A stretch of 64,000 nucleotides of DNA from Kibdelosporangium persicum (GTDB taxonomy: Bacteria > Actinomycetota > Actinomycetes > Mycobacteriales > Pseudonocardiaceae). Below, in pieces: positions 10,651-30,496 of the stretch. The translations under genes were made by a program, and so were the position numbers. Position 1 is the stretch's first letter, and every line of letters begins with the position of its first letter. The stretch lies in contig NZ_JAAATY010000003.1 of assembly GCF_013280595.1 (NCBI RefSeq), positions 62,001 through 126,000 of the forward strand, given 5' to 3'. The notes under the pieces are model-generated. The model made no database searches. It was not told where the DNA came from and saw nothing but the letters and a program-made list of their open reading frames with translations.

Positions 10651-10680
10651 GCCGGAAACGATATAGGCACCCAGCTCAGC

Positions 10681-10728
10681 CCTCGTGAGTGGTTATCAGG
10701 GTTAGAACACGGCTAAACACTCACGAGG
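10681..10728 (-). terminator. palindromic intergenic element, copy 2 of 3; probable terminator
   Basis: Arms CCTCGTGAGTGGTTA (10681-10695) and 10714-10728 pair with one mismatch. The core TCAGGGTTAGAACAC is shared with copy 1 at 1216-1264. It begins 13 bp after the stop of the DUF1707 gene on the minus strand and lies 30 bp upstream of the helicase start, so it separates two same-strand transcription units. Confidence 0.7.
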
Positions 10729-10741
10729 GGTTGGGGCCGGG

Positions 10742-11326
10742 TCAGCGGCCCCAGGGGTGCTTGACCTTGAAGTTGCCCATCCCGACCTTGGCGTGCACGT
10801 GCAGGACCGGCATGGCCGGGTCGGCGGGGTCGGTCGCCTTGTTCACCGCGTTGCCCATGCCGGTGGACACCGACTCCATCCGGACCAGCCATCCGCGCGG
10901 CACGATCACCACGATGTTGCCCGACCCGCAGGTCGCGTGCAGGGTGACGTTCTTGTGCGCACACCGTGCCCGGGTGAAGTCGATGTGGATGGTGCCCATC
11001 GTGCACTGCGCGGTGATGGTGCCCGGCACCGTCCACTCGCCCTTCTGCTTCACCGTGCCCGCGCCGGTCCTGAGCAGCAACGGCTCTTCCCTGACGGGCG
11101 CGACGTCGGCGTGCACGAGGCCGGGCAGGTCGATCAGCAGGCTGTTCAGCTCGCCCCGGGTGCTCGACGCCAACGCGCGGTCGGTGCGTTTGGTGAACTC
11201 GTCCAGCGAGAGCATGCCCTGCCCGACCGCCTTCTGCAGCAGGCCCAGGACGTGCTCACGGTCGGCGTCGGACACCCGGAGGTTCTTCGGGTCGAACGGC
11301 TGCGGCTCAAGCTGATTCTCACCCAC
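10742..11326 (-). CDS. DUF1707 domain-containing protein
   Basis: A 194-residue protein. The N-terminal DUF1707 segment (LRVSDADREHVLGLLQKAV through ELNSLLIDLPG, residues ~12-60) is common in actinobacterial envelope-associated regulators. The rest is a beta-rich domain resembling the cell-wall-active stress-response fold (DUF2154-like: NIVVIVPRGWLVRMESV). No membrane helix is seen, so it is probably cytoplasmic. The GTG at 11326 is chosen because the domain starts soon after; its ribosome site is weak. It follows the SDR gene by 19 bp and may be the last gene of the SDR operon, ending at the palindromic terminator. Confidence 0.75.
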   Translation of the reverse strand: MGENQLEPQPFDPKNLRVSDADREHVLGLLQKAVGQGMLSLDEFTKRTDRALASSTRGELNSLLIDLPGLVHADVAPVREEPLLLRTGAGTVKQKGEWTVPGTITAQCTMGTIHIDFTRARCAHKNVTLHATCGSGNIVVIVPRGWLVRMESVSTGMGNAVNKATDPADPAMPVLHVHAKVGMGNFKVKHPWGR

Positions 11327-11345
11327 GCGCTCACCGTATCGCCAA

Positions 11346-12224
11346 CTACTGGACAACAGTGAGCAGCTCCGGGTAACCGATACGGCGGTAGAACTGCTGC
11401 CGCACCGCGTCGCCGACCGCGTTGACCAGCTCCGCGCCGTCCTCGGCCGGGTCGATGTGCACGCGGAACGGCCGCTGTCCCCTGGGCAGGCCGACCACTC
11501 GCACGATCGCACGTGCCACCTCGGCGGGGTCGGCGTCGGGCGGCAACAGGTCCGCCAGCCGCCGTGCGACTTCCTCCGAGAAACCGGCGTACTTCTCGTC
11601 GTACGCGGCCACGACCGCCGGATCGTCCGCGTGCCCCGCGTTGGCGAAGTGGTTGGTGCCCCGGGTGAAGGCGCCGGGCACGATGATGGTCGACTCGATG
11701 CCGAACCGCGTCAGCTCGGTCGCGTAGCTCACCGCCAGTGCGTCCATGGCCGCCTTCGCGGCGAAGTACGGGGCGAGGAACGGCGGCGTGCCACCGCGTG
11801 TGCTGGACGAGCCGACCCACACCACCAGACCGTCGCCCTGCTTGCGCAGCTGGGGCAACGCGGCCCGGTTGAGCCGTTGCGTCGACAGCACATTCGTGTC
11901 GTAGACGCTGGCGTACTGCTCGGGTGTGAAGGCTTCGGCCGCGCCGAGCACCATGTGCCCGGCGTTGTGCACGACGACATCCAGCCGTCCTTCTTCGGCG
12001 AGCACCGTGGCGACGGCCGCGTCGACCGAGCGCTGGTCGGACATTTCCATCTGGACGGGACGCAGGTTGTCGCTGTACGCCCTGGCCTGCGCCGCCGGGA
12101 CGGCGTTGCGGCCCGCGATGTCCCGCATTCCGGCGTAGACGGTGTGGCCCGCGTCGACGAGCGCACGGGCCGTCAGGGCACCGAATCCGCTCGAGGCACC
12201 GGAGATGATGACGATCTTCGACAT
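11346..12224 (-). CDS. short-chain dehydrogenase/reductase (SDR), classical
   Basis: A 292-residue NAD(P)H-dependent oxidoreductase. The cofactor motif SGASSGFG is at residues 8-15, the NAG structural motif appears in VVHNAGHM, and the catalytic YxxxK is in PYFAAKAAMD, preceded by a serine-rich strand (VGSSSTRGG). The C-terminal extension carries a substrate-binding segment of no recognised specificity. It follows another SDR gene by 30 bp on the same strand; both are divergent from a TetR gene across an operator-like array, so a common inducible response is likely (inference). Confidence 0.85.
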   Translation of the reverse strand: MSKIVIISGASSGFGALTARALVDAGHTVYAGMRDIAGRNAVPAAQARAYSDNLRPVQMEMSDQRSVDAAVATVLAEEGRLDVVVHNAGHMVLGAAEAFTPEQYASVYDTNVLSTQRLNRAALPQLRKQGDGLVVWVGSSSTRGGTPPFLAPYFAAKAAMDALAVSYATELTRFGIESTIIVPGAFTRGTNHFANAGHADDPAVVAAYDEKYAGFSEEVARRLADLLPPDADPAEVARAIVRVVGLPRGQRPFRVHIDPAEDGAELVNAVGDAVRQQFYRRIGYPELLTVVQ

Positions 12225-12254
12225 TGTTCTTTCCTCACAAGGTGATGGGACGGG

Positions 12255-12983
12255 TCAGGCGGCCACGCCGCCGTTGGTGTAGATGACCTGGCCGTTGATC
12301 CAGCGGGCCGGGCCGGCGAGGAACGACACGACCTCGGCGACGTCCGAGGGCAGGCCGAGACGCTCCAGCGGGGCGGCCTTCGACGCGGCGTCGATGACCT
12401 CCTGCGGCTTGCCTTCGAAGTACAGCGGGGTGGCGGTCGGCCCAGGGGCGACGGCGTTGACCGTGACGTCGCGGCCGCGCATCTCCTTGGCGAGGGTCAG
12501 CGTCATCCCGTCGACGGCGCCTTTGCTGGCCGCGTACGCGGTGTAGCCCGGGACGGCCAGTTTGGTGACCGTGGTGGAGAAGTTGATGATGGCGCCGCCC
12601 TGGCGCACCCGGCGGGCCGCCTGCTGGGACACCACGAACGTGCCGCGGATGTTGGTGCGGTGCATCCGGTCGAGGTCCTCGAGCTTCAGCTCGGTCAACG
12701 GCGACAGCAGCATGATGCCCGCGGTGTTCACCACGACGTCCACTCCGCCGTACAGCCGCTCCACCTCGTCGAACAGCGCGGCGATCTGGGTCTCGTCGGC
12801 GACGTCCGCCTGGAACGCGCTGGCCGTTCCGCCCGCCTCGGTGATCTTCTCGACGGTCTCGTCGGCCCGGCCCTTGTTGCCCGAGTAGTGCACCAGCACG
12901 GTCATCCCGTCCGTGGCCAGCCGCTGCGCGACCTCACGGCCGATTCCGCCGGAAGCACCGGTGACGATCGCAACCCGAGTCAT
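12255..12983 (-). CDS. short-chain dehydrogenase/reductase (SDR), FabG-like
   Basis: A 242-residue classical SDR. It shows TGASGGIG at residues 8-15, NTAGIML in place of NNAG, the catalytic YTAYAASKGAVDG with YxxxK, and the PGPTATPLY loop after it. The closing SFLAGPARWINGQVIYTNGG is typical of FabG-type reductases. The ATG at 12983 has the ribosome site AGAGGGAGA. It is the first gene of the minus-strand unit that starts within the palindrome array at 12999-13101, so it is probably the main target of the divergent TetR repressor. Confidence 0.88.
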   Translation of the reverse strand: MTRVAIVTGASGGIGREVAQRLATDGMTVLVHYSGNKGRADETVEKITEAGGTASAFQADVADETQIAALFDEVERLYGGVDVVVNTAGIMLLSPLTELKLEDLDRMHRTNIRGTFVVSQQAARRVRQGGAIINFSTTVTKLAVPGYTAYAASKGAVDGMTLTLAKEMRGRDVTVNAVAPGPTATPLYFEGKPQEVIDAASKAAPLERLGLPSDVAEVVSFLAGPARWINGQVIYTNGGVAA

Positions 12984-12998
12984 TGTTCTCCCTCTCTT

Positions 12999-13101
12999 GT
13001 TAGCGTTGTTCCGCTCGTTCGATAGCAACGCTACGCCGGTGTTCGTAGCAGCGCTACCCCAAATTCGATATCAACGCTATGACGTGGGTAACATCGCTAC
13101 C
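12999..13101. promoter_or_regulatory. array of about five operator-like palindromes between SDR and TetR genes
   Basis: Related 13-15-bp sites occur at 12999-13011 (inverted, GTTAGCGTTGTTC), 13021-13034 (GATAGCAACGCTAC), 13045-13057 (perfect GTAGC-AGC-GCTAC), 13067-13081 (GATATCAACGCTATG) and 13087-13101 (GGTAACATCGCTACC). The shared core is about TAGCANCGCTA. Centres lie 20-24 bp apart, roughly two helical turns, so bound dimers would line up on one face. A TATCA-C-TGATA palindrome follows at 13111-13121. Position between a TetR gene and its divergent neighbour is the classic place for TetR operators. Confidence 0.7.
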
Positions 13102-13131
13102 CGAGCCGCGTATCACTGATAACATCGGGGC

Positions 13132-13821
13132 ATGGACGATCTCAGGACACGCATGCTGGAGGCGGCGTCCGAACTGCTGGACTCCTCGCCGGACCGGGAC
13201 ATCTCCACCCGGGCGGTCTGCGAGGCGGTCGGTGTCGGGGCGCCCGTGCTCTACCGGTTGTTCGGTGACAAGAACGGGCTGCTCAGCGCGGTCGTCGACC
13301 ACGGGTTCGAGAAGTACCTGACGGTCAAGCGGGTGACCCGGCCGTCGGAGGACCCGGTCGCCGACGTGGCAGCGGGCTGGGACAACCATGTCGCCTTCGC
13401 GCAGCAGCACCCCACGGTGTACCGGATGATGTACTCCCCTGCCCTCAGCGCGGTGCCGAAGGCCGCGCACGAGGCGTTCGAGCTGCTCCGCGGCCTGCTG
13501 GAGCGATGTGCCGAGGCCGGGCGGCTGCGCGTCCCGGTGGACGCCGCCGCACAGACGATCATGTCCGCGAGCGTCGGCGTCGCGTTGAGCGTGGTCACGC
13601 AGCCGGATGTGTACACCGACGAAGGACTGCCGGCGCGGGTCCGGGACGCGGTGTTCTCGTCGGTCTTCGTGGACAAGCCGGCCGAGCCGGAGCCGCCGGC
13701 GAGCCTCGCGACCACGTCGCTGCAGCTCAAGGCGATACTGGCGGCCGATCCGGGCACCGAGCTGGTCGAACCCGAGGTGCACCTGCTCCAGCACTGGCTG
13801 GACCGGCTGGCGAAGGCCTGA
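13132..13821 (+). CDS. TetR/AcrR family transcriptional regulator, divergent from SDR genes
   Basis: A 229-residue regulator with an N-terminal HTH (MLEAASELLDSSPDRDISTR, then AVCEAVGVGAPVLYRLFGDK). The C-terminal ligand pocket is of unknown specificity. The ATG at 13132 begins directly with the first DNA-binding helix. The divergent arrangement with two SDR genes and the palindrome array in between suggest that it represses them and itself until an effector, perhaps an SDR substrate, binds. That regulatory link is inferred. Confidence 0.88.
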   Translation: MDDLRTRMLEAASELLDSSPDRDISTRAVCEAVGVGAPVLYRLFGDKNGLLSAVVDHGFEKYLTVKRVTRPSEDPVADVAAGWDNHVAFAQQHPTVYRMMYSPALSAVPKAAHEAFELLRGLLERCAEAGRLRVPVDAAAQTIMSASVGVALSVVTQPDVYTDEGLPARVRDAVFSSVFVDKPAEPEPPASLATTSLQLKAILAADPGTELVEPEVHLLQHWLDRLAKA

Positions 13822-13935
13822 CGCGTGAAAGGGCGTGGGCCGGCGACACCTCCAGCAAGCCGCCGGACCACGCGACAGCTGCGGCAATGAGGGTAGGGAC
13901 CGGCCGTACAGCGGTGCGTACAGCGAGTTTGACGG

Positions 13936-16689
13936 TCACTGGACGCTGCCGGCCAGTAACTCCTCGAGTACGGGATCACGGCGGATGCTCGGCGCGGCGA
14001 ACAGTTCGTAGGCCCGACGCCGTTCCACTCCGGCGGCCCAGGCCTCGCCCAACGCGGTCCGTGCGCGAGCCACCTGCCTGGCCGAGGCGGCCTGACCGTA
14101 GTCGTGCTCGATCCGAGCAGTCAGTTCCTTGGCTCGCAACGCGTCATGCAGCGCCGCACGGACTTTGCCCTCCCGCAGCCAGATCTCCGAGCGGCACAGC
14201 AACGCTTCCCACTCGTCGTCCCGGTTGCCCATCTCATGGCAGCAGGTCACGGCCTCGTCCAGGGTCCGCAACGCGTCCGTTCGCTGATCCATCAGGCAGT
14301 ACGCGCGGCCCAGCGCGACCAGCGTGATGCTCTCACCCATCCGGTCGTCGTACCGCCTGCGCATGGCGAGGCACTCGTGCAGGCTGTCCACGGCCTCCGT
14401 GTGCTTGCCCATCCGCAGCAGGACCTCACCGAGGTTGTGCTGGGCGATGAGCACCTTGGCCGAGCCCTCCGCCGACAGCAGCCGGATGCTTTCGGTGAAG
14501 TGGTCCAGCGCCAGGCGCAGGTCCTGCGTCCACATGCACAGCCAGCCCAGGTTGTGCAGGGCGAGTCCTTCGCCTTCCCGGTCACCCAGGTCGCGCCAGA
14601 TCCGCAGGGCACGGGTCAGGCCCGCCCGCGCGGACTCGACCCGCCCGGCCCGGTACTCGATCGTGCTGTGGATCGCGAGCGTCGCCGCCTCGCCGCGCCG
14701 GTCGTCGTCACGCCGCGCCACGCCGAGCGCCAGTTCGGCCAGCGTCGCCAGCTCACGCCAGTGGCTGCGTTTCGACGCGTACGCGCGGACCGCGGTGACG
14801 ACGTCGATGGTGAACCGGGCGATCCCGGGCTCACGCTCCGCGGCCTGGGCCGCGACCGCCACGAGGCACGGCATCTCCGCGTCGAACTCTTCCACCTCGG
14901 CACGCCCGCACATCGTCACATACCAGTCCAGCGCACGCTGCAAGGCGCACGTGCGCTCGGCCGCCGGGTCGACCTCGGCGGCGAGTTCGGCCGCGTAGAG
15001 CCGGAGCAGGTCGTGGGTCCGGAACCGGCCGCCCGCGACCGGGTCGAGCAGGCGGACCTCCACCAGCCGGTCCAGCGCCCGTTCCGCGCGCAGGTCGTCC
15101 ACCTCGAGCAGGACGGCGACCAGCTCGACCCCGACCTCCGGCACACCGAGCACACCCAGCAGCCGGAAAGCCTTGGCCGCCATGGCATCCGCGCCGAGCG
15201 ACTCGTAACCGACGGCGAAACACGCGCGCACGCCCAGATCCGCGACACGCAACTCGTCCAGCCGACGCCGCCGGTCGGCCAGCCGCGCGCCGAACCGCGC
15301 GAGCGACCAGTCCGGCCGGCTCGCCAGCCGAGCACCCGCGATGCGCAGCGCCAGCGGATGCCCGCCGCACCACCGGGTGATCTCCGCCGCCGCGGTGTCC
15401 TCGGCCGCGACCCGGTCGTCCCCGGCGATCTTTCCCAGCAACCGCACGGAATCCGCACCGTCGAGCACGTCGACCCGGATGTGCCTGGCGTCCACAGTGG
15501 TCAATGCGATCCGGCTGGTGATCAGCACCGCGCAGTCCCGGTTGGCCGGCAGCACCGGTGCCACCTGGCCCGCGTCCGCCGCGTTGTCCAGGACCACGAG
15601 GACCTTCCGGGACGCCAGCAGCGACTGGTACCGGGCCGCCGCCTCACCGGGCTCGACCGTCAGCTCACCGGCGGGCACACCGAGTGCCCGCAGGAACCGG
15701 CCGATCACCTCCGGCGGGTCCAGCGGCCGCAGACCAGGGCTCGATCCCTGCAGGTCCACGTACAACTGGCCGTCCGGGTACCGGCCTGCGACGGTGTGCG
15801 CGACCTTCAACGCGAGCGTGGACTTGCCCACGCCGCCGGGCCCGTGGAACGCCACCACGCCCCCGGCCGAGGCGGCGGCGAGCTCCTGCTGCCTGCCGAC
15901 GAACACCGCGGGCTCCGGCGGCAACTGCCGGGGCACCACCGCCGGTCCGGCCCGGACGGGCGACAACGCCGGGTCCCGCCGCAGCACCTGGTCGTGCAGG
16001 CGGCTCAGCTCCGGGCCGGGGTCGATGCCCAGCTCGTCGACGAGCGTCCGGCGGGCCGACCGGTACGCCTCCAGCGCGCCCGGCACGTCCCCGGAGCGGT
16101 ACAGCGCCAGGACCAACTGGCTGTGCAGCTTCTCCCGCAACGGGTGCTGCCGGATCCAGCCCCGTAATCGGGCCGTGACGTCCGCGTGCCTGCCGGTGGC
16201 CAGCTCGACCTCGACGTAGTCCTCGACCGTGGCCAGGTACCGCTCGGTCATCCGCGCGGCGAACTCGCTCAGCCGCGGGCCGAGCGGCACGTCCTCGGCG
16301 ACCGGGCCGCGCCACAGCCGCAACGCCTCGTCGAAGGCCTCGCCCGCGGCCGGCAGATCGGACCGGGCCAGCGCCTGCCTGCCGGCCTCGGCGAGTTCCT
16401 CGAACCGGGGGACGTCGAAATCGTCCGGATCGACGTCCAGCCGATAACCCGAACGAAGGGTGACGAGCTGGTCCTCGTCGGTGAGCAACCGGCGCAGCCG
16501 CATCACGTAACCGCGCAGGTTCGGGGCGGCCGAACGCGGCGGACGGTCACCCCACACCTCGGCGACCAGCGCGCTCGCCGGGACCGTCCGGCCGGCGTTG
16601 ACCAGCAGCATCGCCAGCACGGTGCGTTGTTTGTCCGCGGCGATCGGGCTGGTGCGGATCTCCAGTGGCCCCAGCAGCCGGAACCTCAT
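13936..16689 (-). CDS. AfsR/SARP family transcriptional regulator (BTAD, NB-ARC, TPR)
   Basis: A 917-residue SARP-type activator. Residues 1-90 form an OmpR-like winged helix starting MRFRLLGPLEI. Residues ~95-240 are the bacterial transcriptional activation domain. The NB-ARC ATPase has Walker A GPGGVGKST near residue 283, Walker B KVLVVLDNAAD, and the ARC signature GGHPLALRIAG. TPR-like repeats fill the C-terminal third. All parts are intact, unlike the second AfsR gene at 44084-46050. It is divergent from a LacI gene across about 128 bp. Such proteins often activate antibiotic clusters, but no biosynthetic cluster is visible beside it. Confidence 0.92.
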   Translation of the reverse strand: MRFRLLGPLEIRTSPIAADKQRTVLAMLLVNAGRTVPASALVAEVWGDRPPRSAAPNLRGYVMRLRRLLTDEDQLVTLRSGYRLDVDPDDFDVPRFEELAEAGRQALARSDLPAAGEAFDEALRLWRGPVAEDVPLGPRLSEFAARMTERYLATVEDYVEVELATGRHADVTARLRGWIRQHPLREKLHSQLVLALYRSGDVPGALEAYRSARRTLVDELGIDPGPELSRLHDQVLRRDPALSPVRAGPAVVPRQLPPEPAVFVGRQQELAAASAGGVVAFHGPGGVGKSTLALKVAHTVAGRYPDGQLYVDLQGSSPGLRPLDPPEVIGRFLRALGVPAGELTVEPGEAAARYQSLLASRKVLVVLDNAADAGQVAPVLPANRDCAVLITSRIALTTVDARHIRVDVLDGADSVRLLGKIAGDDRVAAEDTAAAEITRWCGGHPLALRIAGARLASRPDWSLARFGARLADRRRRLDELRVADLGVRACFAVGYESLGADAMAAKAFRLLGVLGVPEVGVELVAVLLEVDDLRAERALDRLVEVRLLDPVAGGRFRTHDLLRLYAAELAAEVDPAAERTCALQRALDWYVTMCGRAEVEEFDAEMPCLVAVAAQAAEREPGIARFTIDVVTAVRAYASKRSHWRELATLAELALGVARRDDDRRGEAATLAIHSTIEYRAGRVESARAGLTRALRIWRDLGDREGEGLALHNLGWLCMWTQDLRLALDHFTESIRLLSAEGSAKVLIAQHNLGEVLLRMGKHTEAVDSLHECLAMRRRYDDRMGESITLVALGRAYCLMDQRTDALRTLDEAVTCCHEMGNRDDEWEALLCRSEIWLREGKVRAALHDALRAKELTARIEHDYGQAASARQVARARTALGEAWAAGVERRRAYELFAAPSIRRDPVLEELLAGSVQ

Positions 16690-16817
16690 GGCACTCGCTG
16701 AACCGGAATTCGCCGCATTCGCGCAGTGTGTCGACGGTCCGGTGGTCCGGTCAAGTTCGCGGTGCGGAACACTCCACGACGGTAACGCCCGAGTCCGTTC
16801 GTTGTAGAAATACTGAT

Positions 16818-17855
16818 ATGAGCAAGCCGGCTGCCCGCACCCCGACCCTCGAGGACGTCGCCCGGGTCGCCGGCGTGTCCCGGGCGACGGTGTCCCGGGT
16901 GATCAACGGCATCCGCAACGTGGACGTGGAGATCCAGCAGGCCGTCCGCGAGGCGATCCAGGCGACCGGGTACGCGCCCAACCAGGCGGCGCGGTCGTTG
17001 GTCACGCGGCGTGCCGGCACGATCGCCCTGGTCATGGCGGGCGCACCGGGGCAGGGCGACGAGTTCGCCACGCAGATCTTCGCCGACCCGTTCTTCGGCC
17101 GGGTGGCCGGTGGCGTGGTGGGCTTCCTGCGCAACCACGGCGTCCACCCGGTGCTGATGCTCGGCGAGACGGACAAGGCCCGCGCCGAGGTGGTGGACTT
17201 CCTCAAACGCGGAAACGCCGACGGCGCACTGCTGGTCTCGACGCATCCCGAGGACCCGCTGCCCCGGTCGCTGACCGAGGCCGGGCTCGCGGCGGTGCTG
17301 TTCGCCCGGCCCGCTCGTCCCGTGCCGATCAGTTACGTCGACCTGGCCCACCAGGCGGGCGCGGCGCTGGCCGCCGACCACCTCGTCGCCCGCGGCCGCA
17401 CGAGGGTCGTCACCATCTGCGGGCCGCTCGACGTGCCCGCGGCGCAGGACCGGCTGGCCGGTTTCCGGGAGGCCATGGCCCGGCACGGATATCCGTACAT
17501 CCCGATCGCGGAGGGCAACTTCACCCAGCAGAGCGGGGAGGCGGCGATGTCGCGGCTGCTGGCCGAACACCCGGACCTGGACGGTGTGTTCGCCGCCAAC
17601 GACCTGATGGCGCACGGCGCTTTGCTGGTGCTGCAGAAGAACGGACGCCGTGTGCCGGAGGACGTCGCGCTGGTCGGCTTCGACAACAGCCCGCCCGCGC
17701 TGGCGTCGCGGCCCCGGCTGACCACGGTCGTGCAGCCGATCGAGGAGATGGCCGCCGAGATGGCCAGAATCCTGCTGGAACGGATCGAGTCGCCCGGCCA
17801 GGCACCCCGCTCGGTGATCTTCGACCCGACCCTGGTGATCCGCGAATCGGCGTGA
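16818..17855 (+). CDS. LacI family transcriptional regulator
   Basis: A 345-residue repressor. The N-terminal HTH TLEDVARVAGVSRATVSRVI is textbook LacI, followed by the hinge helix (PNQAARSLVTRR) and a periplasmic-binding-like effector domain ending in DPTLVIRES. The start at 16818 puts the HTH at residues 10-30. No sugar-utilisation genes are adjacent: the divergent neighbour is an AfsR-type regulator and the convergent one an ABC permease, so its targets are unknown. A strong hairpin follows its stop. Confidence 0.92.
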   Translation: MSKPAARTPTLEDVARVAGVSRATVSRVINGIRNVDVEIQQAVREAIQATGYAPNQAARSLVTRRAGTIALVMAGAPGQGDEFATQIFADPFFGRVAGGVVGFLRNHGVHPVLMLGETDKARAEVVDFLKRGNADGALLVSTHPEDPLPRSLTEAGLAAVLFARPARPVPISYVDLAHQAGAALAADHLVARGRTRVVTICGPLDVPAAQDRLAGFREAMARHGYPYIPIAEGNFTQQSGEAAMSRLLAEHPDLDGVFAANDLMAHGALLVLQKNGRRVPEDVALVGFDNSPPALASRPRLTTVVQPIEEMAAEMARILLERIESPGQAPRSVIFDPTLVIRESA

Positions 17856-22701: not shown

Positions 22702-23103
22702 CTAGAAGTGGTCCGTGCCGGCCAGTTCGCGCTCGAAGCTGTCGGCATGCGCGACCACCAGCTTGAGCGGGCGTTCGAACTCCTCACGCACGCTCAGGTC
22801 CTCGACCGGCACGGTGTGCTTGAGCAGCGCGACGCCGTCGACCACCGCGACCCCGCCGACGGTCGCGCTGCCGGCCAGTTCGAGGAGCCTGCGCAGGTCG
22901 ACCTGGTCGGCCCAGCCGACCGGGGAGGAGATCTCGAGCCACTCGCCGTCGTCGTCGGGCACGTGGTGCACCGAGACCTGCTGGCTGCGCGAGCCGTCGG
23001 TGTCCATCCGGAACCGCAGCCAGGTGTCGCTCTCCTCCAGCACCTCGTACCGGGTTCGAACGTAGTTGATCACTTCGGTCCAACTGCTCACGCGGGTGAG
23101 CAT
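22702..23103 (-). CDS. conserved hypothetical protein, 133 aa
   Basis: An acidic soluble protein I do not recognise with certainty. It reads as alternating helices and strands: an N-terminal helix (SWTEVINYVRTRYEVLEES), strands (WLRFRMD, QQVSVHHV, EWLEISSPVGW), then two helices, ending in VVAHADSFERELAGTDHF. This pattern resembles the YbjN/type III chaperone-like fold found in many small actinobacterial proteins, which is only an analogy. No signal peptide or membrane segment. Convergent with the FetB-like gene. Confidence 0.6.
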   Translation of the reverse strand: MLTRVSSWTEVINYVRTRYEVLEESDTWLRFRMDTDGSRSQQVSVHHVPDDDGEWLEISSPVGWADQVDLRRLLELAGSATVGGVAVVDGVALLKHTVPVEDLSVREEFERPLKLVVAHADSFERELAGTDHF

Positions 23104-24558: not shown

Positions 24559-24560
24559 GC

Positions 24561-24608
24561 CCTCGTGAGTGTTTGTCAGGGTTAGAACCCTGACAACCAC
24601 TCACGAGG
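24561..24608. terminator. palindromic intergenic element, copy 3 of 3; near-perfect 48-bp palindrome
   Basis: Arms of 23 bp (24561-24583 and 24586-24608) pair with one mismatch around a 2-nt loop (AG). It lies between convergent genes: 2 bp after the hydrolase stop, and its right arm supplies the TGA stop of the minus-strand radical SAM gene. Outer arms (CCTCGTGAGTG) and the core TCAGGGTTAGAAC match copies 1 and 2. Suited to bidirectional termination. Confidence 0.75.
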
Positions 24609-26055
24609 GGTGAGCTGCGGAAACGTCGAAGTCGGCGTTGATGACGGCTTCCACCAGGACCTCTCCCGCAGGCGTCAACCGAAGCCCGTCCGCATCCGTC
24701 AGCAGCAGACCGCGCGCGACCAGGGACTCGAAAGTGGCCCGCCAGGCGCCATCCACCAGAGACCGCCCGAACCGCTCGCGATGAACGGACTCCCGGACGG
24801 GCTGGAGCGTCGACAACGCCATCTTGATCGCCCGCTCCTCCTGGGCCTCGGGCGAGAACCGCGTCGCGGAACCCAGCGGAACCCGCCCGGCGTCCACCGC
24901 CTCGGCGTACCGCTGCCAGTGCACGTCGGTGATCGCCTCGGACCGGCGGCAGCTGGAACTGCCGCCCAGCCCGATGGCCACCTCGGCCTCCTGGCGGTGC
25001 TGATCCACCATGATGGACTTCCACTCCTCGGGCCCCTGGCCGTCCCGGGCGAAGTACATCGTCGGATGCTCGGTATAGCCCGCGGAACGCAGACCCTCGG
25101 TGAGGATCTCGCGCATCTGGTACTGCTCCCCCAGCGTGGGCCACCGATGCCCGTCCCGCACCAGCTTGTCCCGATAGGAGGGAATCTGCCACGCCGCGGG
25201 CTGCACACCCGCCACGCCGGTCCGGGTGTCCGAGTAGGACTTGAGGTGCAGCTTCGTACAGACGACGGCCGTCAGCTCCAGGTCGAGCACCGTGTCGAGG
25301 TCGCGGCGGACGCTGTCGAGGGTCTGGTCGAGCAAGCCGTACATCAGGTCGATGCTGATCCACGGGAACCCGGCGCGTTGCGCTTCGCGCACGAAGGCCA
25401 CGCACATCTCGGCGCTGTGTTCACGGCCGCACTCGGCCAGGACCTTGTCGTCGAAGGACTGGACCCCGCTGGAAAGCTTGGTGACGCCCAGCGACGCCAG
25501 CAGTTCCAGCTTCGGCGGGGTGAACGTGCTCGGGTCGCCCTCGAAGCGGATCGCCGTGTCCGGGCCGAACGCGAAGTTCTCCCGGTAGAAGTCCAGCAGC
25601 CTGCGGATCGCGTCGGGCGGCAGCAGCGAAGGCGTGCCCCCGAAAACGTTGAACTCGCCGATCGGCGCGGTCCGCAGGGCGGGCACTTCGCGCAGCCACG
25701 ACCGGGCTTCCCTGATGTTCCAGTCCACCCACTGGTTCGCCTTGGCGTCGGCGTTCTCGCCCTTGGCCAGCACGACGGGATACTGGCAGAAGCGGCAGCG
25801 GTACGCGCAGGTCGGAATGTAGGACCACAGGTGGATCGGCGCGGTGTCTTCCAGTTGCGTGTTGAGGTCGGCCAGGAAGTCCGGCACCGCGTAGCCGACT
25901 TCGTTGCCGGGGAACACATGGGCGCCGAACGGGTCCTCGACGACGTACTCCAGCAGGTGCCGGTTCTCCGGTGCGGCAAGGACATCCGCCACCGCGGGCT
26001 TGGGGTGGGACGGGTCGAGCACGCGCAGGGACGCCAGCGCTGACGCGTAGTCCAT
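24601..26055 (-). CDS. HemN/HemW-like radical SAM protein
   Basis: A 484-residue radical SAM enzyme. The cluster motif CAYRCRFC (C-x3-C-x2-C) follows HLWSYIPT, near residue 83. The GGTPSLLP loop, the SSGVQSFDDKVLAECGR segment and IDLMYGLLDQTLDSV are hallmarks of the oxygen-independent coproporphyrinogen oxidase-like superfamily, and the C-terminal ~120 residues resemble the HemN C-terminal helical domain. It has one cysteine fewer in the motif than true HemN (C-x3-C-x2-C-x-C), so it is unlikely to be the haem enzyme. The ATG at 26055 overlaps the stop of the glycosyltransferase gene by one base, so the two are translationally coupled. Substrate unknown; modification of a sugar or glycoside made by its partner is an inference. 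Confidence 0.88.
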   Translation of the reverse strand: MDYASALASLRVLDPSHPKPAVADVLAAPENRHLLEYVVEDPFGAHVFPGNEVGYAVPDFLADLNTQLEDTAPIHLWSYIPTCAYRCRFCQYPVVLAKGENADAKANQWVDWNIREARSWLREVPALRTAPIGEFNVFGGTPSLLPPDAIRRLLDFYRENFAFGPDTAIRFEGDPSTFTPPKLELLASLGVTKLSSGVQSFDDKVLAECGREHSAEMCVAFVREAQRAGFPWISIDLMYGLLDQTLDSVRRDLDTVLDLELTAVVCTKLHLKSYSDTRTGVAGVQPAAWQIPSYRDKLVRDGHRWPTLGEQYQMREILTEGLRSAGYTEHPTMYFARDGQGPEEWKSIMVDQHRQEAEVAIGLGGSSSCRRSEAITDVHWQRYAEAVDAGRVPLGSATRFSPEAQEERAIKMALSTLQPVRESVHRERFGRSLVDGAWRATFESLVARGLLLTDADGLRLTPAGEVLVEAVINADFDVSAAHPS

Positions 26056-28622
26056 CAGAACACGCCTCCGTTGCCGAAGTAGTTGTGTGCCTCGCCGGAT
26101 TCCCTGTCCTCGCAGTAGTACTTGACGAACTCGACAAAGCGGTCCGGCGGCACGTCCTCGAAGCACGGCGGGAGTGGCGGCGGGTGGCCGATGTCCTGCC
26201 CCACGGTCGCCCGCAGCCGGGCGAAGATCTCGTCGGCGAACTCGAAGTAGAGCCGGTAGGACGGAGTCTTGTACGAGTGGATCGGCGTGAAGTCCGTCAT
26301 CCGCATCTCGTCCTTGATCTCCGCGATCCGCCTGCCGAGCCGTTCGGCCAGTGCCGGGGTGAAGAACTCGATCACCGCGTCGTCGTCCAGCAAGGACGGC
26401 GTGAGCAGGACCGGGAGGATGGTGTTCTTCGGGGTGAAGTCCTTGATGGAGTACTCCCACGCCTGCTGTGCCTGCTCCTCGGTCAGGTCCTCGCTCACCG
26501 CTGTGGACTCCGGCCGGATGTCCCGCATCACGATGATGCCGTCCGAACCGTACGCACGGCCGGCGATCACCTCGTCGATCGCGTGGTCGACCCTGCGCGG
26601 GTTGATCTCCACCCGTGACCGGGGAACGTAGCCGATGTCCTCGCCGCTGCCCCGGACCTTGATGCCGAAGTCCCAGTCGTCGGACAGGTGGTTGACGAAC
26701 CTCCCGTCCTGCAACTGGTAGAAGATCTCGATGCCGCCGACCCGGTCGTGCACGTCGCGGTCGACGGCGAACCCCTTGCCGTCCGGGAATCCGCCGAACA
26801 ACGCGAACGTCACCGCCCGGCAGCGCAAGGTTCTGGTGATCGCGTCCCACAGCCGGGGCCGTCCGGCGAAGTGTTCGGCGGAGTAGTAGTAGTCGCACAC
26901 CCCGATCGCCGCCTTGCCGGATTCCATGGCCACGAACAACTCGGACAACCAGTCCTGGTCGACGCGGCAGTCGGCGTCCGCGGACACGAGGTAGAAACGC
27001 TCCTCCGCGTTGACCCGGCCCCGGCTGCGCACGCTGGCGAACCGCATGCCGGTCCGGCGTGCGCACGACACGCCTTGCTCAGGCTCGGGAACGACGTGGA
27101 TCGCCAGGTCGGGGTGGTCCGAGGCGAACTTCTCGGCGATGTCCACGGTGTCGTCGGTGGAGTTGTTGTCCACCAGGACGACTTCGTAGGTCGATCGGTC
27201 CATTCCGCGCTGGTGGTAGAGCGAATCGAGGACGGCGGGCAGGTTCGCGGCCTCGTTGTACACGGGCAGCACCACGCTGAGCCGGATCCGCTCGTCCATC
27301 GGCGTGAGCACCAACCGGTCCAGCAGGTCCCGTGCCGTGCTGAAATCACGCTCGCCCAGCCTGAAGTTGTGCTCCGCCATCGCCGCTCGCTTCTCCTCGT
27401 CGGTGAGCAGGTCCCGTACCCGCCGGACGAAACCAGGGTCAGGGATGTCCTCGGTGAGCAGCGGCGCACGGAAGCCCTTGCTGCCGTACACCGTGTCGTA
27501 CAGCTCGTACCGGGTGGCCACGTAAGGCACACCGGAAGCGATGGCCTCCCCCACCGGGTTTCCATAACTCTCGTAGTCATACGATGTCAAGAACGACACC
27601 AAGTCCGCGTGGGCCAGCAGATCCCGCACCGAGTACCGGCAGCCTGTCGAGCGGCCGATGTCGTCCTCGTGCGGGGCGAGCCAGCCGCCGAACACGACCC
27701 GATCGGTGACGCCCAGCTCCTGCGCCAGTGCGGTGAGCCTGCGGTACTCCTCCGGCGACTCGCCGGTGTCACCCGCCACGAACAGGTACGCCTCCGGGAT
27801 TCCGGCCAGCAGGTGCAGATCCCGGTCGATGCGCTTCTGCCTGATGATCCGCGTGCACCGGGCGATCAGCGGGGCGCCGGCCGGAATGCCGTGCTCACGG
27901 CGGAAATCGGCGTTACCGGAGTGGACGATCGCCTTGCGGTGCGTGAACGTGTTCGGCAGGACGTCGATCGTACGCAGGTGCGGCGCCCATTCCAGGGTCC
28001 TGCGGCGGGCCTGGTCGTGCAGCGCCAGGTAGTGGATGTGCGGGGAGTTCGGCGGTTTGGGGGTCGCCGGGTAGGGATACTCGCCGTACTTCCCCGAGCT
28101 CGGTTCACTTTGCCACATCAGGTCGTGGTCACGCCACAGGACGTACCGGCCCAGGCCGCGGCGGGCACCGTACTTGTCGATGGCGAGGTGCAAAGCCTTG
28201 GTGTACGTGATGTTCTCGGGCAGCGTTCCGTTCTCGACCAGCACATACGCCACGTCGTGCGCTTCCCAGGTGGCGACGATGAGCTCGCTCAGCGTGTGCG
28301 CGATCGCGTCGATCCTGGGCAGCAGATGTGTTCCCTCGCCGCGACCGACCACTTCGCGCAGCACGTCGGCGACGAACTGCCTGTCGTATCCGGCAATCCC
28401 CTCGATGCCCGCGATCCGGCCGAGCCGGACCCAGTCCGGCAGCAGCCGGGATTCGTGCTCGTACGGCCGGAAGAACGCGTCCTTGTCGGCCTTGATGTCG
28501 TAGCCGAGGTCCAGCACGACCCGCGTGCCCCGGTCGGCGAAGTGCCTCGCCGTCTTCACGAACTCCACAACGACACCGGAGATCGGCGTGGCGTCGAAGG
28601 AGATGCCCCAAAGCGCCGTCAT
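26055..28622 (-). CDS. bifunctional GT4-GT2 fusion glycosyltransferase
   Basis: A protein of about 855 residues. The N-terminal half is a GT-B glycosyltransferase of family-4 type, with the nucleotide-sugar region ESYGNPVGEAIASGVPYVAT (E-x7-E-like). The second half starts RLSVVLPVYNEAANLPAVLDSL, a GT-A family-2 domain with VDNNSTDD and the metal motif SADADCRVD, then a ~130-residue C-terminal extension without recognised domain. No membrane segment or signal peptide. The ATG at 28622 gives the GT4-like start MTALWGISFDA; its ribosome site is close and weak, and longer starts are open. It is coupled to a HemN-like radical SAM gene downstream. The two active sites suggest that one chain adds two sugars or extends a glycoside. 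Confidence 0.85.
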   Translation of the reverse strand: MTALWGISFDATPISGVVVEFVKTARHFADRGTRVVLDLGYDIKADKDAFFRPYEHESRLLPDWVRLGRIAGIEGIAGYDRQFVADVLREVVGRGEGTHLLPRIDAIAHTLSELIVATWEAHDVAYVLVENGTLPENITYTKALHLAIDKYGARRGLGRYVLWRDHDLMWQSEPSSGKYGEYPYPATPKPPNSPHIHYLALHDQARRRTLEWAPHLRTIDVLPNTFTHRKAIVHSGNADFRREHGIPAGAPLIARCTRIIRQKRIDRDLHLLAGIPEAYLFVAGDTGESPEEYRRLTALAQELGVTDRVVFGGWLAPHEDDIGRSTGCRYSVRDLLAHADLVSFLTSYDYESYGNPVGEAIASGVPYVATRYELYDTVYGSKGFRAPLLTEDIPDPGFVRRVRDLLTDEEKRAAMAEHNFRLGERDFSTARDLLDRLVLTPMDERIRLSVVLPVYNEAANLPAVLDSLYHQRGMDRSTYEVVLVDNNSTDDTVDIAEKFASDHPDLAIHVVPEPEQGVSCARRTGMRFASVRSRGRVNAEERFYLVSADADCRVDQDWLSELFVAMESGKAAIGVCDYYYSAEHFAGRPRLWDAITRTLRCRAVTFALFGGFPDGKGFAVDRDVHDRVGGIEIFYQLQDGRFVNHLSDDWDFGIKVRGSGEDIGYVPRSRVEINPRRVDHAIDEVIAGRAYGSDGIIVMRDIRPESTAVSEDLTEEQAQQAWEYSIKDFTPKNTILPVLLTPSLLDDDAVIEFFTPALAERLGRRIAEIKDEMRMTDFTPIHSYKTPSYRLYFEFADEIFARLRATVGQDIGHPPPLPPCFEDVPPDRFVEFVKYYCEDRESGEAHNYFGNGGVF

Positions 28623-28724: not shown

Positions 28725-29831
28725 TCATCGGCGCGGCAGTGACACCAGTGACGGTGACGGGATACCGAACACGACGGTCAGTTCCAAGCCGCCGTCCGGG
28801 TTGGGCCGCGCCGTGATCTCGGCATGGTGCGCCCGCGCGATCGAAGCCGCTATGGACAGCCCGAGGCCGGCGCCGTCCGTGCGGGTCCGCGTGTGCAACC
28901 GGCGGAACGGCTGGAACAGCTCGGGAATCCGTTCCGGGGCGACGTGCGGCCCGGTGTTGCGGACGGTCAGCACCCCGGACGCGCTGAGTCCGATGTGCAC
29001 TGATCCACCCGGGTGGTTGTACCGCACGGCATTGCTCACCACGTTGACAAGCAGCCGGTGCAGTAGTACTGGATCACCACGCACCATGACCGGTTCGGTG
29101 GCGACCGTGATGGTGATTCCGTCCGTTGTGGACTCCGTGGCCGTCTGCCGCACCAGGGTCGCCAGTTCCACCGGCCGCATGGCGTCCAGGCCGTGCTCGG
29201 CCTCGGCGAGCACCAGCAGCGAATCGATGATCTGTTCGGTACGCCGGTTGTGGGTGAGCAGTTTCGCCCGGACCGCGGGCAGGTCACCGGCGTCTTCGAG
29301 TCCTATTTGGATCGCGGCGCGCTGGGTGGCCAGCGGCGTTCGCAGCTCGTGTGCGGCGTTGGCGATGAACTGACGCTGGCTCTCCGCGGAGCGCTCCAGC
29401 CGTTCCAGCATCGCGTCGAACGTGTCGGCGAGGTCTTTCAGCTCGTCGTTCGGTCCGGTCAACGCGATCCGCTCGTCCAGGTTGGAGAACGAGAGCCGCT
29501 GCGCGGTCGCGGTGATCCGGCGCAGCGGCCGCAGCATCCGGCCCGCCATCCACCACCCGGCGGCGATCGACAGCGCCGCGAGAACGGCGATGGTGATCAG
29601 GGTCGCGATCCACTGGTCCCGCAGCACCTCCTCCGGCAGCTCCCGGACGTTCTCGACCCGCAGTCCCGGTGGTGGCGGCGGGGGGAATTCCAGGCGCACC
29701 GGCCGGTCCGGCGCGATCTGCGCGACCTCGGTGTTCAGCCTGTCGCTGAACACCATGTTCACCACGATCACCAGGACCGTGGAGGTGACCAGGAAGATAC
29801 CGGTGTAGAGCACGGTCAGCCGGACCCGCAT
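28725..29831 (-). CDS. two-component sensor histidine kinase
   Basis: A 368-residue membrane kinase: helix 1 near residues 10-30, a short Pro-rich external loop (EFPPPPPPGLR), helix 2 near 80-105, a HAMP segment (GRMLRPLRRITATAQRLS), the phosphoacceptor H-box NAAHELRTPLA, N-box NVVSNAVRYN and G-box DGAGLGLS. The short external loop suggests sensing at or in the membrane. The ATG at 29831 has GAGG upstream; a GTG at 29846 that overlaps the regulator stop (GTGA) is also in frame. Either way it is coupled to the response regulator. Its signal is unknown. Confidence 0.92.
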   Translation of the reverse strand: MRVRLTVLYTGIFLVTSTVLVIVVNMVFSDRLNTEVAQIAPDRPVRLEFPPPPPPGLRVENVRELPEEVLRDQWIATLITIAVLAALSIAAGWWMAGRMLRPLRRITATAQRLSFSNLDERIALTGPNDELKDLADTFDAMLERLERSAESQRQFIANAAHELRTPLATQRAAIQIGLEDAGDLPAVRAKLLTHNRRTEQIIDSLLVLAEAEHGLDAMRPVELATLVRQTATESTTDGITITVATEPVMVRGDPVLLHRLLVNVVSNAVRYNHPGGSVHIGLSASGVLTVRNTGPHVAPERIPELFQPFRRLHTRTRTDGAGLGLSIAASIARAHHAEITARPNPDGGLELTVVFGIPSPSLVSLPRR

Positions 29832-29842
29832 CGTCCGTCGCC

Positions 29843-30496
29843 TCACAGCACGTATCCAGCGCCCGGCACGGTCTGGATGCACGCCGGGTCACCGAGTTTG
29901 GCCCGCAGTCTGCTGATGATCACACGCACGACGGTCGTGAACGGATCGGTGTGCTCGTCCCAGGCCGACTCCAGCAGCCGTTCGGCGCTGACGACCGCCC
30001 CATCGGCCCGCATCAGCACCTCCAGGACCGCGTATTCCTTCAGTGACAGGCGGAGGAACCGGCCGTCCCGCGTCACCTGCATGCGCTGCGTGTCCATCAC
30101 GATCCCGTGCCGCCGCAACGTCGGCGGCACGGGCGCCTGACTGCGCCTGCCCAGCGCTTGCACCCGTGCCACCAGTTCGCTGTAGTCGAAAGGTTTCGGC
30201 AGGTAGTCGTCCGCGCCGAGGCCGAGACCGGCGACCCGTTCGGGCACCGACGCGGCCGCGGTGAGCATCAGGATTCTGGTCCGGGCCCCGGCCGTGACCA
30301 GGTCCTGGCAGATCTCGTCGCCGTGCACCTCGGGTAAGTCCCGATCCAGCACCAGCACGTCGTAGTCGTTGACCGCCAACCGCTCGGACGCGGTTGCCCC
30401 GTCGTAGGCCACGTCGACGGCCATCGCGTGCCTGCGCAACCCCGTGGCGACCAGATCTGCCAGGTCCCGTTCGTCCTCAGCCACCAGTACTCGCAT
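29843..30496 (-). CDS. OmpR/PhoB family response regulator
   Basis: A 217-residue regulator. The receiver has acidic residues ED at 7-8, phosphoacceptor Asp in VLVLDRDLP, Thr in MLTAAA and Lys in LPKPFDYSEL. The C-terminal winged helix is typical (LKEYAVLEVLMRADGAVVSAE, then VVRVIISRLRAKLGDP) and ends at GAGYVL. It is the first gene of the pair with the histidine kinase. No obvious operator is seen. The genes it controls cannot be named from sequence. Confidence 0.94.
   Translation of the reverse strand: MRVLVAEDERDLADLVATGLRRHAMAVDVAYDGATASERLAVNDYDVLVLDRDLPEVHGDEICQDLVTAGARTRILMLTAAASVPERVAGLGLGADDYLPKPFDYSELVARVQALGRRSQAPVPPTLRRHGIVMDTQRMQVTRDGRFLRLSLKEYAVLEVLMRADGAVVSAERLLESAWDEHTDPFTTVVRVIISRLRAKLGDPACIQTVPGAGYVL

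Follow-up and report, generated by a model that had tools for sequence, protein, structure and literature searches.

A conserved gene pair encoding a GT4-GT2 fusion glycosyltransferase and a HemN-like radical S-adenosylmethionine enzyme, with a possible role in making a modified soluble oligosaccharide

In two named pathways a glycosyltransferase and a radical S-adenosylmethionine (SAM) enzyme belong together: the GT2 enzyme MftF accompanies the radical SAM enzyme MftC in the mycofactocin pathway, and a glycosyltransferase accompanies the radical SAM enzyme BlsE in that of blasticidin S. In both, the two kinds of enzyme serve one small product, as we propose here for two neighbouring genes, encoding a fused GT4-GT2 glycosyltransferase and a radical SAM enzyme with a predicted HemN fold, that lie in a 64,000-nucleotide stretch of the genome of Kibdelosporangium persicum (contig NZ_JAAATY010000003.1, positions 62,001 to 126,000; hereafter the window). 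The mycofactocin and blasticidin S pathways differ in that their radical SAM enzymes come from other subfamilies, and they involve more genes and a core that is a peptide or a nucleoside. Unlike the nameable transferase-radical SAM pathways, the present pair stands alone in most genomes; in our comparisons MftF emerged as a weak profile match, and BlsE as a structure-comparison row at Z 13.6.

The initial annotation of this DNA recognised no described pathway with such a pair, and we likewise found no characterised one: NCBIfam, Pfam and the PDB return superfamily kin only, and literature searches yielded no functional description. The types of parts are known, whereas their combination, the tail of the fusion and the genomic setting are new as far as those literature searches show. 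We tentatively propose, at somewhat less than even confidence, that the pair makes a soluble, probably exported oligosaccharide on a trehalose-type acceptor and that this product is modified by two-SAM radical chemistry.

Conservation and co-divergence of the gene pair

The fusion and radical SAM genes form a conserved, self-contained two-gene unit. Within the window's family both proteins are encoded by the identical 19 of 150 genomes and by no others (E 1e-40), the genes being adjacent and in unchanged order in all 19; eighteen of these retain the one-base TGATG overlap that had been noticed in the window, and the remaining one has TGAATG (L049 is counted by its printed TGATG although the open reading frame (ORF) script chose an earlier start). 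Among named genomes, the best 80 of 137 relatives of the fusion were fetched and studied: 57 are actinobacterial (Kibdelosporangium, Amycolatopsis, Lentzea, Kutzneria, Streptomyces, Nonomuraea, Frankia, Micromonospora, Kineosporia and others) and 23 proteobacterial (Pseudomonas, Enterobacterales, Cupriavidus, Paraburkholderia, Ensifer/Sinorhizobium), so that the pair extends beyond the actinobacteria, the group across which the initial annotation had suggested a search. In all 80 fetched loci the radical SAM gene adjoins the fusion or its split form; this and the shared presence in the family are the opposite of the rare co-occurrence that had been named as counting against a two-gene system.

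Moreover, the two proteins diverge in step. Their distances correlate with r 0.94 over 57 actinobacterial rows including the window, a value reached in 0 of 999 permutations, and at 0.95 over 19 proteobacterial rows (5 of 81 loci were omitted for short or split proteins), and the median identity between actinobacterial and proteobacterial members is 48% for each protein. The fusion of L114 is 88% identical to that of the window. Identical presence, universal adjacency and co-divergence together rule out chance neighbours, and the motifs of the two transferase domains and of the radical SAM enzyme, which are intact (see below), further uphold the idea of a conserved two-gene system.

The distribution is patchy. 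A phylum-wide scan found the pair in 1 of 396 genomes, namely the window's own, a figure that bounds close relatives only, since scoring was confined to the top 2 or 4 candidates of each genome. Seed genomes included, the pair occurs in 2/151 genomes of the family of the Ensifer/Sinorhizobium seed, 12/295 of that of the Lonsdalea seed, 4/145 of that of the Paraburkholderia seed (one of the 4 divergent) and 1/298 of that of the Pseudomonas seed, this being the seed itself, with other Pseudomonas holders known from the scan for relatives. GT4 and GT2 are separate genes in Cupriavidus taiwanensis, Duffyella, Rhizobium jaguaris and Lonsdalea, and the fusion is thus one of two arrangements. In L161 (10135-11423) the GT2 is read as two ORFs, and the radical SAM protein of L117 is short (343 aa); decay or sequence error is possible in either case. 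No wider conserved cluster was found in the window's family, where each flanking gene family occurs in at most 5 of 19 regions, as judged with a crude ORF caller that, at the radical SAM gene, frequently picked the antisense frame. Flanking genes vary between genomes, which marks the pair as a self-contained unit.

Catalytic domains and the tail of the fusion

Pfam matches to GT4 (residues 239-418, E 3.3e-11) and GT2 (449-600, E 3e-25) confirm that both families are fused in the first protein, and Radical_SAM matches residues 78-250 of the second (E 1.6e-20; Table 1). No NCBIfam equivalog was found for either protein, every listed match lying under its cut-off. In a structure search with the model of the fusion (predicted local distance difference test, pLDDT, 85; predicted template modelling score 0.63), GT4 enzymes make up most rows and GT2 rows align poorly, and no fold match emerged for the GT2 or C-terminal part by itself; residues 1-443 match HepE (Z 31.8) and BshA (Z 30.1), and TreT rows stand at Z 23.0-24.9. 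HepE (Alr3699), BshA and TreT have the GT-B fold and donor-site residues in common with the fusion, but they are single-domain enzymes and show 11-19% identity in structural alignments. R258, K263 and E359 are invariant in 77/77 fusion rows, and E (56 rows) or D (21 rows) stands at position 351; the GT-B fold, the donor-site Arg and Lys and E-x7-E (with E or D at 351), all features of the GT4 superfamily, are present. So are the D, DxD and catalytic-base Asp motifs of the GT2 superfamily, D485, D549, D551, D648 and D649 being invariant in the same 77 rows. Here and in the radical SAM enzyme the conserved residues presumably play the same roles as their counterparts in these families. The C-terminal region, put at about 130 residues in the initial annotation, indeed lacks an assigned family but is somewhat larger, about 684-855: Pfam gave no family in the window protein and a chance-level match in 1 of 16 aligned members (E 0.085), and the best match of a PDB sequence search with the region was only E 0.19.

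Table 1. Features of the gene pair, with positions in the window
Feature	Position	Strand	Detail or basis
GT4-GT2 fusion glycosyltransferase gene	26055..28622	-	855 aa; ATG start
HemN-fold (predicted) radical SAM enzyme gene	24601..26055	-	484 aa
One-base stop/start overlap, TGATG	26055..26055	-	read from sequence
GT4 domain (GT-B fold), fusion residues 1-443	27294..28622	-	Pfam, structure comparison, residues
GT2 domain (GT-A), about fusion residues 447-680	26583..27284	-	Pfam, conserved residues
C-terminal helical region of the fusion, residues 684-855, without assigned family	26058..26573	-	model, profile and PDB searches
Invariant 18-residue C-terminal tail EDRESGEAHNYFGNGGVF, fusion residues 838-855	26058..26111	-	100/101 loci
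GGAGG, ribosome-binding-like site for the radical SAM gene, within the tail codons	26065..26069	-	same place in other loci
Iron-sulfur cluster motif C83-x3-C87-x2-C90 of the radical SAM protein	25786..25809	-	80/80 rows

Neither window protein has a membrane-like segment (top Kyte-Doolittle 19-mer means 1.28 and 1.05), and among the window neighbours scanned no carrier or backbone gene was seen, as had been noted earlier. These observations bear on the idea, in our view improbable, that the pair decorates a target at the cell surface, be it a polysaccharide, a lipid or a glycoprotein. Profile matches of the GT2 domain, each weak and below its cut-off, are in the main to exopolysaccharide enzymes, and the GT4 kin include HepE and WaaG, but a polymerase, flippase or carrier gene is never recurrent beside the pair, whose recurrent partner is a major facilitator superfamily (MFS) transporter. 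Thus, of the earlier suggestion that the pair makes and then radically modifies a glycoside or glycan, the glycoside fits the data; a soluble product is more probable than a glycan of the cell wall, since neither membrane-like segments nor recurrent lipid-carrier or polymer genes were found.

The model of the radical SAM protein (pLDDT 88) aligns with HemN (1olt) at Z 35.2, over 414 of 434 residues with a root-mean-square deviation of 2.6, the next row being at Z 14.5. This comparison agrees with the HemN-type fold proposed at the outset, and the aligned rows confirm that only C-x3-C-x2-C is present: C83, C87, C90, G139, G140, T141, E172, Q199, R211 and D236 are invariant in 80/80 rows, and the position of the fourth Cys of HemN (C-x3-C-x2-C-x-C) is occupied by Tyr in 77 rows and by Phe in 3. 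The position of HemN Tyr56 and NocN Tyr34 is Trp77 in all 80 rows (register from the PDB sequence alignment). According to the available part of PMC12871812, HemN Tyr56 stacks on the second SAM and is conserved among HemN-like methylases, and one of these, NocN, the second PDB sequence match of our protein (E 6.5e-24), has the identical three-Cys motif; the missing fourth Cys, which the initial annotation had presented as an oddity, is therefore not distinctive.

HemN has the whole-chain fold and the cluster and SAM-site residues in common with the pair's enzyme, but the latter lacks both the fourth Cys and the SAM II Tyr of HemN and has an obligate glycosyltransferase partner. The class C methylases (NosN/NocN, TbtI, C10P) carry the HemN-like three-Cys motif, as here, but have peptide or aromatic/olefinic-carbon substrates (in the available parts of PMC12871812 and PMC6050322), different partners and Tyr rather than Trp. 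Since the enzyme lacks a tested defining feature of HemN as well as one of the class C methylases, we file it under neither; judged by its modelled fold, it would work like both.

NCBIfam scores stay below every cut-off: 100.8 bits against 324.95 for TIGR00538 (HemN), 92.0 against 205.4 for HemW, 110.3 against 400 for HutW, and 116.3 against 380 for the best match, NF006067 (STM4012). Identity as a haem oxidase, haem chaperone or haem-degrading enzyme was rejected on these scores; STM4012, although the top match, was rejected as well, a genuine member of that family (623 bits) being encoded elsewhere in the same genome. The fold and the HemN, HutW and STM4012 matches could be taken to mean that the gene is a haem-pathway enzyme of the HemN, HemW or HutW type merely neighbouring a glycosyltransferase. 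We find this scarcely credible, given the sub-threshold scores, the replacement of the fourth Cys and the SAM II Tyr in 80/80 rows, the further HemN-like genes elsewhere in the genome and the strict partnership with the fusion.

The fusion ends in the 18-residue pattern EDRESGEAHNYF[G/A]NGGVF-stop in 100 of 101 loci; in these loci it matches the tail of Table 1 with at most 2 substitutions and always reaches the stop codon (in two loci an ambiguous base accounts for one of the counted positions, and at least 5 of the 101 loci are duplicates). The sole exception is the lone GT4 of L163, a divergent locus from Burkholderiaceae. That locus (9418-17743), which is possibly a sister pathway, carries a GT4 and a radical SAM gene of about 38-41% identity, and the neighbours are a QueA-like gene, two flavin adenine dinucleotide (FAD) oxidoreductase genes, a protein without Pfam match and a lectin-domain gene.

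The tail codons vary synonymously at every position, which indicates that selection acts on the protein; conservation merely through the ribosome-binding site of the next gene is ruled out by this variation and by conservation reaching far upstream of GGAGG. The 18-residue windows 837 and 838 are the best conserved of the fusion, with 16/18 positions above 90% and the same in both phyla, but the next separate one has 15/18, so that by this measure the tail's lead is narrow. In the model, confidence is low for the tail (block means 67 and 50) and higher for other conserved blocks of the fusion (601-630 at 86-92). It is low as well over residues 631-650 (69 and 59), which are conserved too, so that the tail is not unique in this respect.

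Most likely, the tail docks onto the radical SAM partner or closes an active site. It could conceivably also be a substrate, its last 18 residues being modified by the radical SAM enzyme in the manner of a ribosomally synthesized and post-translationally modified peptide, possibly as a glycan carrier. The rank of the tail among conserved windows, its constant end at the stop codon, its low model confidence and the synonymous variation of its codons all count in favour of this reading. We nevertheless consider it distinctly unlikely, in view of the narrow lead, the likewise low confidence of 631-650 and the presence in L163 of a radical SAM enzyme without the tail; moreover, no recurring protease or peptide-maturation gene was seen beside the pair, and docking or active-site-lid roles can also conserve tails. 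Of these proposals docking is the simplest, and the substrate role the bold one.

Transporters, trehalose genes and the putative product

We propose that the GT4 and GT2 domains would glycosylate a small water-soluble acceptor in succession, using housekeeping nucleoside diphosphate sugars, and that this acceptor would most likely be trehalose itself or a derivative of it. The translationally coupled HemN-fold enzyme would convert its cluster-bound SAM to a 5'-deoxyadenosyl radical and, via a second SAM, move one carbon to, or take a hydrogen from, a carbon of the glycoside, with the invariant tail docking the radical SAM partner or closing the active site for handover of the product; the finished oligosaccharide would probably be exported by an MFS transporter. 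What argues for this scheme is the shared presence in 19/150 genomes, TGATG in 18/19, adjacency in 80/80, the correlation of 0.94 and the kept catalytic residues, together with a HemN fold predicted over the whole chain and the lack of a membrane-like segment.

Export is suggested by MFS transporter genes, present in 17 of the 18 gammaproteobacterial loci examined and divergently upstream of the pair in 6 of 57 actinobacterial loci, with matches in two more. A 265-residue protein without Pfam match stands beside the pair in 18/18 of these gammaproteobacterial loci and in 0/10 alpha- and betaproteobacterial loci. This family of about 265 residues (e.g., L134 10065-13057) has an internal duplication, and two copies flank the MFS gene, the second copy being known from loci read in detail.

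Several contexts point to trehalose as what appears to be the best-supported acceptor. Lonsdalea iberica has, in order on one strand, otsB, otsA, a GMC oxidoreductase (top profile match pyranose oxidase, below cut-off), a class III aminotransferase, a sulfotransferase-like gene, GT4, GT2, the radical SAM gene and the 265-residue protein; three near relatives keep this row with OtsA 93-98% identical, although in one of them, L160, the match to otsB covers only 74 residues and that to the sulfotransferase 208. A second OtsA is encoded elsewhere in the L. iberica genome (53% identity over the fragment searched). In Duffyella treB-treC lies directly upstream of the pair, at 148 bases, both genes scoring above their NCBIfam cut-offs, and treC and phosphotransferase system (PTS) genes lie upstream of the pair in Pseudomonas L117, L120, L132 and L134, with a porin matched in 3 of the 4. 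The trehalose reading rests on the Lonsdalea otsBA row with its second OtsA, on these Duffyella and Pseudomonas genes and on a NifA-dependent treS described below.

We discarded a further candidate for a link to trehalose, in Pseudochrobactrum L143, because NCBIfam does not mark its sugar genes as trehalose-specific and because its pair is frame-disrupted. This plasmid copy of Pseudochrobactrum sp. XF203 (L143 9998-14114) sits 16 bases behind a sugar-transporter gene row, and frame changes, through decay or sequencing error, interrupt its GT2 and radical SAM genes.

It is possible, though on balance doubtful, that the same two steps are carried out on another small acceptor, such as an amino acid, nucleoside, polyol or core-metabolism aglycone, and that the trehalose genes are incidental. 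Nearly all actinobacterial loci have no trehalose gene alongside, the flanks of the pair vary otherwise, and the nearest GT4 folds include BshA and HepE, users of other acceptors; against this stand the otsBA row that Lonsdalea and its close relatives share, the additional OtsA encoded elsewhere in L. iberica, and tre genes in two further genera. The trehalose proposal itself has to be set against a number of points. The link was noticed post hoc, the tre neighbours in Pseudomonas and Duffyella may be incidental, most other proteobacterial contexts have no trehalose genes, and a panel of proteobacterial trehalose proteins found a single actinobacterial match, a GH13 enzyme at 33% in L081. By fold, HepE and BshA rank over the trehalose transferase TreT. 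Replacement of the SAM II-stacking Tyr by Trp means that the second SAM is not assured; Trp77 is still aromatic, and hence the stacking may persist. Export is the direction that we assume for the MFS transporters, and L163 combines the radical SAM enzyme with a lone GT4 and has neither GT2 nor tail.

Around the pair in the window, a near-perfect 22-bp hairpin (24560-24609, one mismatch, -42 kcal/mol) lies between two convergent genes, overlaps the 3' end of the radical SAM gene and is likely a two-way terminator. A sensor kinase and a response regulator (28725-30496) stand directly upstream of the fusion on the same strand; related genes occupy the same place in Kibdelosporangium L059 and in L114, an arrangement that is not general. 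A 133-aa protein (22702-23103) matches Pfam CesT, a type III secretion chaperone family, at 24.1 against a cut-off of 22 bits.

A symbiosis-plasmid copy and biological implications

The fusion or its split form occurs on ten plasmid records, and the pair is also found in two Frankia genomes. In Paraburkholderia phymatum it lies about 9 kb from nodU and nodS on pBPHY02, which the available parts of PMC8305402 and PMC5979394 name as the symbiotic plasmid. In bean-nodule RNA-seq of a nifA mutant (available part of PMC8305402), the fusion gene, Bphy_7707, is down by log2 4.98 and the radical SAM gene, Bphy_7706, by 4.07; in the same table one nifH (Bphy_7808) is down by 4.88, and treS (Bphy_7407), on the same plasmid as the pair, by 7.53. 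Since that table comprises 142 plasmid genes, five of them up, the NifA dependence of the pair is common to many genes and may be indirect. In an rpoN mutant Bphy_7707 is down by 3.6 (available part of PMC5979394). A full-text search for both locus tags returned only these two papers, whose available parts list the genes and do not discuss their function. A queE gene near the P. phymatum pair (L139 26051-26631; Bphy_7690) is NifA-dependent too (log2 -4.11; available part of PMC8305402).

Within 500 bases upstream of the pair, NifA sites (TGT-N10-ACA) were found in 0 of 9 rhizobial and 2 of 77 other loci. RpoN-like sites within 300 bases occur in 5/9 rhizobial versus 5/76 other loci by a relaxed pattern and in 3/9 versus 0/76 by the stricter GGCAC-N5-TYGC; as they come from about two independent contexts, we do not rely on them.

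At its boldest, and we think it rather unlikely in this full form, the picture would be one in which the fusion's own invariant C-terminal peptide serves a dedicated HemN-fold partner as an arm for docking, a carrier of the glycan or a substrate to be modified, in a portable two-gene radical-sugar pathway spread across soil actinobacteria, plant-associated gammaproteobacteria and nitrogen-fixing symbionts and controlled by NifA in at least one of them. If our proposal of a modified soluble oligosaccharide is true, the pair would constitute a minimal route to radical chemistry at a sugar carbon, one that two phyla have preserved and that one legume symbiont turns on together with nitrogen fixation. 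Furthermore, the pair could reveal a new exported carbohydrate, a new reaction of the HemN fold and the purpose of an invariant enzyme tail.

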